DNA of 64,000 nucleotides from contig CACGIZ010000003.1 in NCBI GenBank assembly GCA_902573235.1, positions 1 to 64,000 on the forward strand. Reading direction: 5' to 3'. The DNA comes from an uncultured Pelagibacteraceae bacterium. Lineage in GTDB: Bacteria; Pseudomonadota; Alphaproteobacteria; Pelagibacterales; Pelagibacteraceae. Positions within the stretch are counted from its first letter, which is position 1. Each line of letters starts with the position of its first letter. Both the position numbers and the translations under genes were made by a program. Below the pieces are notes generated by a model. That model did no database searches. It was not told the origin of the DNA and was given only the letters and a program-made list of their open reading frames with translations. Positions 41,116-46,199 of the stretch are shown piece by piece.

Positions 41116-41901
41116 ATGAGTTTAATGAAGGGTAAAAAAGGATTGATTATGGGAGTTGCTAATGAACGATCTATTGCTTGGGGTATTTCACAAAAATTAG
41201 CTGAGGCAGGAGCTGAATTAGCATTCACATATTTAGGTGACGCTCTTAAAAAAAGAGTTGTTCCTTTAGCTGAAAAATTGAATTCAAAGGTAACATTTAG
41301 TTGCGATGTCGAGAAAAAAGAAGAAGTTGTTAAATTATTTGAGGATATCAAGTCCAAATGGGGGGAAATCGATTTTGTAGTACATGCAGTTGCTTTTTCA
41401 GATAAGTCAGAATTATCAGGTGAATATTTAAATACAACAAGGGAAAACTTTTTAAGGAGTATGTTAATCTCCTGTTTTTCATTTACAGAAGTTGCAAAAG
41501 AAGCATCAAAAATAATGAAACAAGGTGGAAGTCTTCTTACATTAACTTACGAGTCTACCAAAGCTATTCCAAATTATAATGTAATGGGCGTTTGTAAATC
41601 AGCTTTAGAAGCTAGCGTCAAATACTTGGCTAGAGATTTGGGTGCGAAAAGCATGAGAGTAAATGCAATAAGTGCAGGACCCATTAAAACATTAGCGGCC
41701 TCTGCTATTGGGGATGCTAAATTCTTATATAAATGGAATGAAGATCATTCTTTTCTTAAGAGAAATGTTGATATTTATGATGTTGGAAATTCAGCTCTCT
41801 ATCTATTAAGCGACCTTGCGAATGGTGTAACAGGCGAAATTCACTACGTAGATGCTGGTTACAATAAAATGGGAATGCCTGATCCAAAAAATATAACATA
41901 A
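41116..41901 (+). CDS. fabI: Enoyl-ACP reductase, NADH-dependent
   Basis: This 261-aa short-chain dehydrogenase completes each round of fatty acid elongation. The FabI-type glycine motif GVANERSIAWGI and the catalytic Tyr154 and Lys161 in YNVMGVCK (Tyr-x6-Lys spacing) identify it. It is the last gene of fabA-fabB-fabI; the next gene is convergent with a 2-base gap. Confidence 0.96.
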   Translation: MSLMKGKKGLIMGVANERSIAWGISQKLAEAGAELAFTYLGDALKKRVVPLAEKLNSKVTFSCDVEKKEEVVKLFEDIKSKWGEIDFVVHAVAFSDKSELSGEYLNTTRENFLRSMLISCFSFTEVAKEASKIMKQGGSLLTLTYESTKAIPNYNVMGVCKSALEASVKYLARDLGAKSMRVNAISAGPIKTLAASAIGDAKFLYKWNEDHSFLKRNVDIYDVGNSALYLLSDLANGVTGEIHYVDAGYNKMGMPDPKNIT

Positions 41902-41903
41902 TT

Positions 41904-44084
41904 TTAATATAAGTTTTGTTTTGATTTAACAACTCTTAGCTCTAATAAGTGTTCGTGACCTACGCCATCTTTATCAATTCTACTAATTACAGATTTAATA
42001 TTCCACCCATTATCTAAAAACCAATCAAATCCAGATTCCAAAATAACCATTGAGCTATAGTTTTTATCAATAGTAGTACTATATTTGGTTGTTTCTCCAA
42101 CGAAGTTAGCTTTTACATCTGATCCATCTGTAAGATCTTTATCAAAATCTATCTTAAAATAAGGAATAAATAATGAATCGTTAAGATATATTTCTTTCTC
42201 AATCGCAGATCCTAAAGAAATTGATGATGTTTCAAGTTCTCTTTTATCAAATTTTAATTTTGAGCTACTGCTACCCGTCTCAGAATATCCATCAAATTTT
42301 ACAAAACCAAAATTAAATTTGGAATAATTGTGTAATTTATAACTTTTATGGATATTTTTAAAATTATATTTAATCGAACCAAAAACTTGGTTTGCTTTAA
42401 ATTTACCTTTTACAACATTAGAAGGGTTTGAAGTATCAACAATACGTGTCGTTGCGTAAGTAGTTTTTCCAAATCCTAAAAAAGAATCGATATAATTTTT
42501 TTCTGATCCTTGCCAAGTATTATATAAAGATAAATTATCAGATCTTGCTAAAGATCTGGTACTATCCTTAATACCTACATTAGATTGATCATCTTCATGC
42601 CGTAAAGCAAGTCCAAATAAAGAGCCTTTATCATAATTAACATCTGCACCTACTGTAAAACTCTCAGTTCTGTTTATTATTCCTAAATTGCCGTCTGAAC
42701 TCATATTAAGTCTACCTTTTTGAATTGAGCCAGCTGACCAAAATGCCCAATTATTTGGCGTCATTCCATAATTTTCTTTTAAATATTTTGTTAATGGAAG
42801 TTCACTAATTAGATCATTAATATTTTCTGAAGATGAATTTTTATATTTATCAATATAATGATCAAATAATTCTGTTGTTATTTGTTCATTATAATTATTT
42901 TGATTAGCTAGAGTTAATCTCATATCTTTAATTTGAGTCGATTTATTAATACCAACCCTTCTAAACTGCTCCATTCTACGCATGACTTGATTGGTAGTAT
43001 TAAACATAAATCTTTTAGCATGTTCTGTTTGTGCGTTTGCCATTCCACTTACTTGCTTATCATCGAACGCATTGTAAGTACTGCCACTAGCTTCTGTTGA
43101 ATTAATTGTTAACGTTGTTTGACCACTTACTGTTGCACTTTCGCCAGCTGTTCCACCATATTCTATTACATACGCACCAACTATGTGAGTACACGGTAAG
43201 TCATTCCATTGGCCTTTATTATCACCAGAACCGTACATATGTGCACAGTCTTCTTCTCCAATGTCTTCACTATTATGATCATTTGGTTCTAAATCTTTCC
43301 AATTTTCAAATTCATATCCTGATGCTACTTCACAATCTTCATCAGCTGCCTCTGCTTTTATACCAATTTCAACCTGACAAAAAAAAGTGTATCCATTATC
43401 AGGTCCTGAAACCCATTCCCAGGTTCCTTCCGTCTGAGCGTGTGTATTAGATGTATATGTTGAATTATCAGACCCACCAATCCAAGTGTTGGTAGCAAGT
43501 TTATTTTTAATAAAATTATTTTCAGCTGCGCTTGTAATTGTTACAAGATAACCTGTTAAACCTTCATAAGTTGAGGCTTCTGCTGCTGTTTTTGCATCAG
43601 TCCAATTAATATTTCCAGTTACAAGTTGATAATAATGACCATTTCCTGAAAAATAATTTGTACCAGCTGGAGTTACAGCAACAGTAATAGTGGGGGATCC
43701 AGCAGCACCATCACCTTTAAATGATAATGTTGCAAGAGCATTATTTATATCATCTTGTGTTCCTCTAAAACCAATTTCTGTGAGAGAATTACCTGTACAA
43801 GAAGAAGGTACACTTGAATTGTCACTTGAATAACCACAATAGCCCGCTGCCTGCATAAGGTTAGTAACAGACGTTACTTTTATATTTCCATCAGATGCGA
43901 CTGCTGAAACGAGAAGAGTTCCTGTGTAACCACTTATACTAGGTGTTGTTCCTGAACTTGATAATAAAACGAAATCAGTTGTATCAGTTGTTAAAGTTGA
44001 TGGCATTGTAACTGTGCCTGAATAAGCTTTATTACTGTTAAAGAGAAAGATAAGAATTATTAAACTTAAAACAGTAACTCTCAT
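41904..44084 (-). CDS. Secreted C-type lectin domain protein with C-terminal autotransporter barrel
   Basis: This 726-aa protein has a signal peptide (1-22), a Thr/Ser-rich beta region (about 24-140), a C-type lectin domain (about 148-310), a helical linker (about 345-440) and a beta-rich C-terminal region (about 445-726) with the alternating pattern of an autotransporter barrel. The lectin has WIGGSD, EPN (266-268) and WND (293-295), the calcium/sugar-binding positions that in animal lectins favour mannose-type sugars. Cysteines at 236, 251, 280 and 298 could form the lectin disulfides. The final residue is aromatic (Tyr). I infer surface display and glycan or particle binding. It follows pnp by 42 bases. 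Confidence 0.82.
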   Translation of the reverse strand: MRVTVLSLIILIFLFNSNKAYSGTVTMPSTLTTDTTDFVLLSSSGTTPSISGYTGTLLVSAVASDGNIKVTSVTNLMQAAGYCGYSSDNSSVPSSCTGNSLTEIGFRGTQDDINNALATLSFKGDGAAGSPTITVAVTPAGTNYFSGNGHYYQLVTGNINWTDAKTAAEASTYEGLTGYLVTITSAAENNFIKNKLATNTWIGGSDNSTYTSNTHAQTEGTWEWVSGPDNGYTFFCQVEIGIKAEAADEDCEVASGYEFENWKDLEPNDHNSEDIGEEDCAHMYGSGDNKGQWNDLPCTHIVGAYVIEYGGTAGESATVSGQTTLTINSTEASGSTYNAFDDKQVSGMANAQTEHAKRFMFNTTNQVMRRMEQFRRVGINKSTQIKDMRLTLANQNNYNEQITTELFDHYIDKYKNSSSENINDLISELPLTKYLKENYGMTPNNWAFWSAGSIQKGRLNMSSDGNLGIINRTESFTVGADVNYDKGSLFGLALRHEDDQSNVGIKDSTRSLARSDNLSLYNTWQGSEKNYIDSFLGFGKTTYATTRIVDTSNPSNVVKGKFKANQVFGSIKYNFKNIHKSYKLHNYSKFNFGFVKFDGYSETGSSSSKLKFDKRELETSSISLGSAIEKEIYLNDSLFIPYFKIDFDKDLTDGSDVKANFVGETTKYSTTIDKNYSSMVILESGFDWFLDNGWNIKSVISRIDKDGVGHEHLLELRVVKSKQNLY

Positions 44085-44126
44085 AAAATAATTTAATTAT
44101 TCTACTTATTTCTTGATTTTTACATA

Positions 44127-46199
44127 TTAAACTAAAGCTTGTTTAATAGATAATTTTACTTTTCCTCTATCAAATCCGATTACTTTAACTTTCACTTCGT
44201 CACCTTCTTTTACAACATCAGTAACTTTAGCAACCCTTTTATCTGCAAGTTCTGAAATGTGGACAAGTCCATCTTGTTTACCTAAGAAATTAACAAATGC
44301 ACCAAACTCCATAATCTTCATAACTTTTCCTGAATAGATTTTATTTAATTCAGCTTTTGCTGTGATATCTTTAATCATTTGCATAGCAGTGTTTCTAGAC
44401 TCCTCATCCGGAGCAGCAACTGTTACTACGCCCTCATCATTTACATCTACTTTTGCACCTGATTTTTCAACTATCTCTCGTATCGTTGCACCACCTTTTC
44501 CAATTACAGCAGCAATATCTTTTTTGTCGACATTAATCTTTTCCATTTTTGGAGTATGTTTTCCAACATCAGACCTTGAAGCTGATAAAGCTTTATTCAT
44601 CTCTCCTAAAATATGAATTCTTCCATCTTTAGCTTGGCTAAGTGCTTGTTCCATAATCTCAAATGTAATACCTGTAATTTTTATATCCATTTGAAGAGAG
44701 GTAATTCCCTCCTTAGTTCCAGCAACTTTAAAATCCATATCACCTAAATGATCCTCATCACCTAGAATGTCTGACAAAACACTAAAATCATCACCTTCCT
44801 TGATTAATCCCATTGCTATACCTGCAACAGGTTCTTTTATTGGTACTCCAGCATCCATTAAAGCAAGTGAAGTTCCACAAACAGTTGCCATTGAGGACGA
44901 GCCGTTAGATTCAGTAATTTCAGAAACTACTCTAAAAGTATAAGGAAACGCCTCTTTTGATGGTAATGAAGAATGAATAGCTCTCCATGCTAATTTACCA
45001 TGTCCTATTTCTCTTCTTCCAGTTCCTATTCTTCCTGTTTCACCCACAGAAAAAGGTGGAAAGTTATAATGAAGCATAAATCTTTCTCTTTGTAATCCGT
45101 CTAGGCTTTCAATTCTCTGTTCATCATCAGATGTACCTAAAGTAGCTGTTACAATTGCTTGCGTTTCTCCTCTAGTAAACAAAGCAGAGCCATGTGTTCT
45201 TGGCAAAATACCAACCTCACACGAAATTGGCCTAACATCAGATAAACCTCTGCCATCAATTCTATTTTTATTTTTTAGAATATCTGTTCTTACTATAGTT
45301 TTTTCTAAATTTTTTAGTTCAGAATTCACATCAAGATCAGTATAATTTTCATTTTCTTCATAAAGCTTTTTAGCCTTATCTGTAATTTCTGAAATTTGAT
45401 TTGATCTATCTTGCTTATCTCTTGTCGCAAAAGCTATTTTAAGATCTTCTGTGAAAGTTTCTTCAAGTTTTTTCTTTACTTCAGAAAGATCTTTCTTTTC
45501 AACAGTCCATTCCTGTTTTCTACATTCATTTGCAAGTTCCTCTATCATTTTAATTACTGGAACAAAACCTTCGTGACCAAATTTTACTGCATTTAACATT
45601 TCTTCCTCTGTTAATCCACTTGCTTCAGACTCAACCATAAGAACAGCATCTTTTGTACCTGCTACAACTAAATCTAATTTTGATTTTTCCAGTTGAACTT
45701 TTGAAGGATTTAAAACATATTTTCCATCGATGAATCCAACTCTAGAAGCTCCAACTGGACCCATAAATGGCATTCCTGATATAGCTAGTGCAGCTGAAGA
45801 AGCTATAATCGATAAAATATCTGCTTCATTTTCTTTATCATAAGAAATAACAGTTGGTAATAGCTGAACCTCATTTTTAAATTCATCAGGAAATAGTGGT
45901 CTGATTGGTCTGTCAATTAGCCTGGAAATTAATGTTTCACTTTCAGTTGGTCTTGCTTCTCTCTTAAAGTATCCACCTGGAATTTTTCCTGCTGCGTAAT
46001 ATTTTTCCTGGTAATTTACAGATAATGGAAAGTAATCCACATCAGGATTTACTTTTTTTGCTCCCACCACTGTTGCTAAAACGACTGTCTCTCCACATGT
46101 TGCTATTATTGCACCATCTGCCTGTCTTGCTATTTTACCTGTTTCTAAGCTTATTTTTTTTCCTGCTAATTCAATTTCCTTCTTATATATTTTAAACAT
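44127..46199 (-). CDS. pnp: Polyribonucleotide nucleotidyltransferase
   Basis: This 690-aa PNPase degrades RNA phosphorolytically from the 3' end. Two RNase PH domains are present (for example [13 protein letters not shown]-like [14 protein letters not shown] and [13 protein letters not shown]), followed by a KH domain ([15 protein letters not shown]) and an S1 domain ([17 protein letters not shown]). It follows rpsO, as in most Proteobacteria. The 57-base rpsO-pnp gap contains a CGAACGAAA-type repeat instead of an obvious stem-loop. Confidence 0.97.

Follow-up and report, generated by a model that had tools for sequence, protein, structure and literature searches.

The calcium of the sugar site is held, in animal C-type lectins of the mannose type, by the E and N of an EPN motif, by an E that follows it, and by the N and D of a WND motif, and EPN rather than QPD at the first of these places points by an established rule to the mannose/glucose class. 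Intimin and invasin, which are inverse autotransporters (type Ve), display a C-type-lectin-like domain by means of an outer-membrane barrel, and this domain binds protein receptors, unlike the glycan target that we propose here for a protein built from similar parts. SAR11 bacteria are regarded as streamlined drifters that do not adhere. The gene described here lies in a 64,000-nucleotide stretch of DNA from an uncultured bacterium of the Pelagibacteraceae (positions 1 to 64,000, forward strand, of contig CACGIZ010000003.1, assembly GCA_902573235.1; “the window” throughout), and it encodes a 726-residue C-type-lectin autotransporter, abbreviated CTL-AT. We consider it probable, with moderate confidence, that CTL-AT is an adhesin on the SAR11 cell surface that binds glycans in a calcium-dependent manner, and that strains exchange its head. 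Both of its parts, a C-type lectin and a classical autotransporter, are familiar; their pairing we have not found described, and the titles and abstract openings that we searched, in a coverage with subscription journals and preprints outside it, describe no classical SAR11 autotransporter with a C-type lectin that has the full ligand set.

CTL-AT resembles the autotransporter EstA (3kvn) in its C-terminal PF03797-type barrel, with the family profile matching EstA over positions 428–704 (expectation value, E, 4.1e-9), and in having a globular, not a beta-helical, passenger; the EstA passenger is an esterase, whereas that of CTL-AT consists of an N-terminal domain and a C-type lectin. With CD23, ASGR1, and the mannose-binding proteins it shares the C-type lectin fold and the EPN…E…WND ligand set, but it differs from the animal C-type lectins in being bacterial, in lacking the long-range C1–C4 disulfide, and in having an extra loop segment that bears indels. 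Compared with intimin and invasin, in which the barrel is N-terminal, the barrel of CTL-AT is C-terminal and ends with the protein, which is not the inverse-autotransporter order of N-terminal barrel and C-terminal passenger.

Within SAR11, autotransporters are already known (PMC2217521). Those of type V in hypervariable region 1 (HVR1; SAR11_0042/44/46) come from the same order, and at three of the loci read, L102, L103, and L106, the lectin kind adjoins other autotransporters (L denotes loci, G genomes, and C contigs of the genome to which the window belongs), but the word lectin does not occur in the accessible portion of PMC2217521. The two other autotransporters scanned in the window genome differ likewise in having no Lectin_C match. 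The accessible text of PMC12636525 describes a coastal SAR11 autotransporter adhesin with a gene of 5000–9500 bp that adjoins genes of type IV pili and/or type II secretion; CTL-AT is also a proposed SAR11 adhesin, but its gene measures 2.2 kb and lies between pnp and fabI. Farther afield, a protein of Aequorivita (L050) is 41% identical in the lectin region, keeps EPN and WND, and by eye has a similar-looking stretch before the lectin, but it is 1958 residues long and no autotransporter barrel was seen in it. Its tail carries a motif that we take to be type IX secretion-like.

A preliminary description of the window had proposed a C-type lectin fused to an autotransporter barrel, with EPN and WND calcium/sugar positions, between pnp and fabI. 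All of this holds: the coordinates, strand, and length of the open reading frame (ORF) were exact, both motifs and both neighbors are in place, and both domains lie above the curated cut-offs of Pfam (Lectin_C PF00059 over residues 175–300, E 3.8e-8; Autotransporter PF03797 over residues 448–696, profile positions 1–250 of 255, E 6.7e-24). The N-terminal domain (residues 23–145) matches no Pfam family above cut-off, and its amino-acid identity is the highest among the CTL-AT segments compared. An NCBIfam polycystin match to CTL-AT, which scored 17.4 bits where the cut-off is 1861, was disregarded.

Sequence and model concur in assigning the lectin domain to the C-type lectin fold. On the sequence side, the animal lectins matched by a 13-row family profile (CD23, ASGR1, mannose receptor 2, and mannose-binding proteins) have E values from about 1e-8 to 1e-6, and the matches span roughly 40–70 residues, mainly the EPN–WND part. 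For the lectin by itself, AlphaFold2 (AF2) yields a moderate model (mean predicted local distance difference test, pLDDT, 53.1; predicted template modeling score, pTM, 0.55), and its fold matches are used solely alongside the sequence evidence. With this model the fold that had been proposed for the region is recovered: the 50 matches listed by Foldseek all belong to C-type lectin-like domains, the best at E 1.0e-4 (prob 1.00), and the best Z from VIA-align is 11.4. The long-range C1–C4 disulfide, which is common in the C-type lectin superfamily without defining it, is not in the window protein; a C2–C3-like pair (C280/C298) is, and it occurs in 21 of the 40 alignment rows.

All five calcium ligands are invariant in 37 of 37 homologs not chosen for the motif, while the homologs fall to about 38% identity and the loops around the ligands vary in length and sequence. 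Of these 37 rows, 18 form one close group and seven (L054–L060) were initially detected by means of the Lectin_C model; L127, L128, and L132, which entered the 40-row alignment on the strength of their EPN and WND motifs, were excluded from the count. Since lectin-like domains that lose sugar binding usually lose calcium-ligand residues as well, we count the retention of all five amid varying loops in favor of glycan binding.

By its C-terminal beta-domain, CTL-AT is classed as a classical (type Va) autotransporter. Support for the barrel comes from the sequence alone, the full-length AF2 model having a mean pLDDT of 29.9. The window protein ends in Y, and F or Y is the last residue of the 39 members save L033, L040, L043, L127, and L128. 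Residues 1–22 read as signal-peptide-like, with a basic start, a hydrophobic core, and a cleavage-like site between AYS and G, and the N-terminus is hydrophobic in 39/39 autotransporter members compared. Helices are predicted in the linker at 348–376, 382–393, 404–415, 419–426, and 430–439, all at pLDDT below 50. Closely spaced cysteine pairs suit export through an autotransporter pore; the six cysteines of the window protein all belong to the passenger and form pairs with spacings of 13, 15, and 18 residues, and in 37 of the 39 members the cysteines past residue 30 form passenger pairs no more than 27 residues apart.

In the adhesin that we propose, the signal peptide would lead to Sec export, and the barrel would insert into the outer membrane with the helical linker staying in its pore, so that the N-terminal domain and the lectin would be held outside the cell. 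Seawater calcium would there fill the EPN/WND site, a sugar of the mannose/glucose/fucose class could be bound, and changes in the loops may alter which glycan that is. Candidate partners in the sea are polysaccharide from phytoplankton or detritus, another cell, or a virus, and the role that we favor would be reversible attachment to polysaccharide-bearing particles or cells. At the level of sequence, support comes from the architecture, the kept calcium ligands, gain and loss at the junction, and recombination between head and barrel.

The lectin head, the variable segment of residues 204–312, recombines apart from the barrel. A statistic like the pairwise homoplasy index (PHI-like; 331 sites, 18 sequences) falls below all 300 permutations, and the similarity groups of sequences differ from segment to segment. 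L042 is a head/barrel recombinant: it is L041-like over residues 24–312 (synonymous divergence, dS, 0.09 and 0.05) and L049-like over residues 313–726 (dS 0.064), with dS 0.63 between the heads of L042 and L049. Similarly, L032 and L048 differ by dS 0.006 in fabI and 0.20 in pnp, yet by 0.82 in the gap-trimmed head.

The head is also the most divergent part of CTL-AT. We compared all pairs (120) of 16 genomes, namely the window and 15 loci; L047, with a partial gene, was dropped from the codon work, and L045, L046, and L047, whose flanks are cut, from the flank-gene set. Nonsynonymous divergence (dN) and dS are 0.126 and 0.44 in residues 204–312 against 0.056 and 0.27 in the rest of the gene, with head/rest ratios of 2.25 for dN (95% 1.56–3.04) and 1.66 for dS (95% 1.26–2.21) by codon bootstrap. 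Among 760 circular windows of head length, the value of the head is reached by 22 for dS and by 9 for dN, the head included. When codons within four of a gap are removed (18 sequences), the lectin retains a dN of 0.083 against 0.034–0.054 and a dS of 0.36 against 0.25–0.27, and between the window strain and its 17 relatives the trimmed lectin dS lies above that of both other segments in 16, L044 being the exception. By the same measure, the copies of the frame probably go back to a later common ancestor than the flanks do, because dS is about 0.25–0.3 over most of the CTL-AT gene and 0.62, 0.58, and 0.81 over the 16 genomes in pnp, fabI, and fabB, respectively; in 90% of the 120 pairs, pnp has a higher dS than linker plus barrel. 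A diversity-generating retroelement is unlikely as the source of the variation, which by eye consists of shared blocks with indels, and no reverse transcriptase was found; RVT_1 has no match in the window assembly (75% complete), with a control that matched in 3 of 14 genomes.

Several observations weigh against the adhesin reading or against a strong version of it. EPN and WND are needed for sugar binding and are insufficient for it, and the AF2 models of CTL-AT range from poor (full-length) to moderate (lectin alone). The pattern of close cysteine pairs is no strict rule: of the 39 members, L127 and L128 alone have a pair separated by 105 residues, which by eye sits where the canonical long-range lectin disulfide would be, and a single cysteine of L127 falls inside the barrel. 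The gene was not detected in 373 of 397 Pelagibacterales genomes, many of which are incomplete. Removal of gap codons, which serves as a check on misalignment, leaves the excess of the head smaller, with its direction kept, and only 67.5% of the 120 pairs have a head dS above that of linker plus barrel. Over the lectin, dN/dS is 0.22–0.40, with a maximum of 0.43 in any 30-codon window, and it is below 1 everywhere; windows outside the lectin (76–105 and 391–435) match these values, and the head/rest ratio of dN/dS, 1.35, has a 95% interval of 0.84–2.08 that includes 1. With dN/dS below 1 throughout and the head not clearly higher, positive selection is unsupported at the level of segments or windows. 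The preliminary description had raised the possibility of diversifying selection, to be seen in the lectin loops as compared with the barrel; the greater divergence of the head and its separate recombination bear out the variation, and diversifying selection in the strict sense is not supported. Finally, marine SAR11 recombines heavily in general, with a recombination-to-mutation ratio (r/m) of 63 in the accessible text of PMC4053759, so mosaicism alone is no proof of selection on the head. What is specific here is that L042 switches parent where the head ends, and that the deepest allele differences lie in the head.

The convergent junction of pnp and fabI is a slot for accessory genes, and CTL-AT is accessory, because relatives hold at this place the gene, a remnant of it, other DNA, or next to nothing. 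Among 18 close relatives, pnp lies upstream in all 18 and fabI downstream in 17, the contig of L047 ending inside the gene. In L045, 2.2 kb of other DNA with several ORFs (L045:1812–4000) stands between pnp and the lectin autotransporter, and the 17 bases preceding the start codon are one base off those of the window despite the different upstream gene; in L040, L043, and L044, about 0.3–0.7 kb lies between the lectin autotransporter and fabI. A close fabI is present in 26 of 37 sampled genomes of the genus, and at these 26 places we found the gene in 2, the remnant in 1 (G036), an almost empty junction (50–101 bp) in 4, 324–1211 bp of other DNA before pnp in 13, and pnp beyond the locus in 6. 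The G036 remnant consists of the last 55 codons of a lectin autotransporter, left between fabI and pnp (L065:2292–2456, minus strand), and is read as a loss event. A short C-terminal match in G641 resembles it. In relatives L064–L089, the junction corresponding to window positions 41902–44126 holds, by eye, msrB-, sodB-, rhodanese-, methyltransferase-, and SET-like genes or almost nothing. Other CTL-AT lineages are found between lpxB and gltX (by eye), beside pilus genes, or beside other autotransporters, and the lpxB/gltX site holds two separate lineages, a split forced by starred branches. The names of neighbors (pnp, fabI, fabB, rpsO, lpxB, gltX, tsaD, EVE-like, and the cargo genes) were given by eye or by the earlier reader, PilY1 in L104 being the sole neighbor named through a family search.

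A head that is both the most divergent and the exchanged part, together with loss of the gene in some strains such as G036, is what one would also expect if the exposed head were mainly under phage pressure, as a pelagiphage receptor or as a decoy or blocker, with head exchange as escape; the accessible text of PMC4053759 gives the hypothesis that the high recombination of SAR11 stems from selection for variable phage receptor proteins. We hold this to be rather unlikely, as a pure receptor need not keep five calcium ligands in all 37 homologs, dN/dS is below 1, and neither a phage-side partner nor a close phage relative was found in viral contigs, a phage collection, or PHROGs. Two pattern-based scans of viral contigs, which distant relatives may escape, gave no confirmed relative of CTL-AT, PHROGs contained no family at E 0.01, and in the phage collection the sole matches were four records of Flavobacterium phages, which reach about 31% over the lectin. 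After these searches, phage origin and phage-carried copies were set aside. Plasmids yielded 17 matching records, none above 80% of the query, and the 8 listed are barrel-side matches near 20%.

It is less probable still that the lectin-type domain binds a target other than sugar (protein, ice, or mineral) or uses calcium solely for its fold. The structural neighbors of the model do include a type II antifreeze protein and snake venom snaclecs, but the full set of EPN, E, and WND, which is typical of the mannose-binding type, is kept in the 37 homologs, and the best profile matches of the lectin are carbohydrate-recognition domains (CRDs) such as those of CD23, ASGR1, mannose receptor 2, and the mannose-binding proteins. 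Very improbable is glycan capture for feeding, in which the lectin would gather oligosaccharides or glycosylated particles near transporters: the accessible text of PMC12636525 speculates on uptake of nutrients or organic carbon for its different SAR11 autotransporter adhesin, but by eye neither a glycoside hydrolase nor a glycan transporter stands beside the gene in the window, where the neighbors are pnp/rpsO and fabI/fabB, and those of other lineages are lpxB/gltX (by eye).

CTL-AT occurs in a minority of the genomes of its order. In a profile search counted by hand, lectin and barrel are present in 24 of 397 Pelagibacterales genomes, the window genome included; the count takes genomes with matches touching both parts, some of which show the protein incompletely or split in two (G511, G396, G538, G520, and G312 among them), and leaves out lectin-only and barrel-only cases among the 70 genomes with some profile match. 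A scan of the class (385 genomes) adds one genome with lectin and barrel from outside the order, G822, and in a scan of the phylum (349 genomes) the two occur together in one place nowhere but in the window genome. The scans of order, class, and phylum do not prove absence of the gene, since scoring was limited to the two or three best candidates of each genome. A scan of 399 genus genomes with the Lectin_C model reported 12, missed the window genome, and was not used for prevalence. Of 20 homologous loci retrieved, 18 are from Pelagibacteraceae.

The lectin autotransporter of G822 is 94.6% identical to that of the SAR11 genome G520 (L127/L128) and has the same neighbors (by eye, tsaD and an EVE-like gene), while the TsaD parts of the two are 64% identical over 225 residues. 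Because of this disparity, the L127/L128 protein was probably transferred between families recently, a reading to be taken with care, as the G822 contig measures only 4.1 kb. The 40-residue window in which the two proteins are least alike, 241–280 (80%), lies within the lectin.

The same kind of lectin, with EPN and WND, also occurs with other routes of delivery, in SAR11 pseudopilin-like proteins (L130/L062 and L132) and in the secreted L050 of Aequorivita, which we count in favor of the adhesin. By eye, the N-terminus of a 1909-residue protein in G012 (L130:2919–8648, minus strand) is pseudopilin-like; the protein also has a LamG domain (PF13385, E 2.3e-7) and stretches that match the lectin profile, so that SAR11 apparently displays a C-type lectin there on a component of the type IV pilus; in size it is comparable to the adhesin in the accessible text of PMC12636525. 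A protein of 612 residues in G434 (L132:1954–3792, plus strand) combines a pilin N-methylation motif (PF07963) with an EPN/WND C-type lectin region.

The window genome assembly comprises 1.046 Mb in 35 contigs, and Lectin_C matches once in it. The preliminary description had taken this genome to encode otherwise only housekeeping genes, which is incorrect beyond the window: further autotransporter barrels lie on contigs C7 and C8 (Pfam) and C26 (profile match only). The two other autotransporters of this genome that were scanned, L131:3886–6036 (plus strand) and L121:4783–7110 (minus strand), combine a barrel with passengers that have no family above cut-off. The features of CTL-AT and its neighbors are collected in Table 1.

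Table 1. Positions in the window of the CTL-AT gene, its predicted domains and motifs, and the adjoining genes.
Feature	Position	Strand	Basis or remark
CTL-AT, 726-residue C-type-lectin autotransporter	41904..44084	(-)	ORF, Pfam, and orthologs; stop codon 41904–41906
Signal-peptide-like segment, residues 1–22, site AYS/G	44019..44084	(-)	Sequence; hydropathy of 39 family members
N-terminal domain, residues 23–145	43650..44018	(-)	One cysteine pair, C83/C96, in 39/40 rows
C-type lectin domain, residues 146–316	43137..43649	(-)	Pfam, AF2 model, structure matches, profile
Variable head segment, residues 204–312	43149..43475	(-)	Indel-bearing loops and EPN/WND region; strain-to-strain exchange
EPN motif, residues 266–268	43281..43289	(-)	Calcium/sugar ligand positions E266 and N268; 37/37 homology-picked rows
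E278, third calcium ligand position	43251..43253	(-)	37/37 homology-picked rows
WND motif, residues 293–295	43200..43208	(-)	Calcium/sugar ligand positions N294 and D295; 37/37 homology-picked rows
Linker, residues 317–447	42744..43136	(-)	Mostly helical prediction, pLDDT <50; alignment
Autotransporter beta-barrel, residues 448–726	41907..42743	(-)	PF03797, EstA match; C-terminal tyrosine
pnp, upstream neighbor of CTL-AT, 42 bp off	44127..46199	(-), same strand	Name by eye or earlier reader
fabI, convergent downstream neighbor of CTL-AT	41116..41901	(+)	Name by eye or earlier reader

Beyond the single protein, we tentatively suggest a wider picture, which is possible but more doubtful than the adhesin itself: a subset of SAR11 may carry a modular recognition system, in which the autotransporter frame is fixed, the calcium-dependent lectin heads are alleles that species trade through homologous recombination, the residues coordinating the sugar do not change, and glycan specificity would be a shared, frequency-dependent resource of the community, in a bacterium otherwise held to be non-adhesive. 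What these cells recognize becomes a testable question, given a surface lectin that a minority of genomes keep, whose calcium site is conserved, and whose head recombines apart from its anchor. If the head binds glycans, differences between strains in their contact with particles, algae, or phages would be readable from a segment of about 110 residues.

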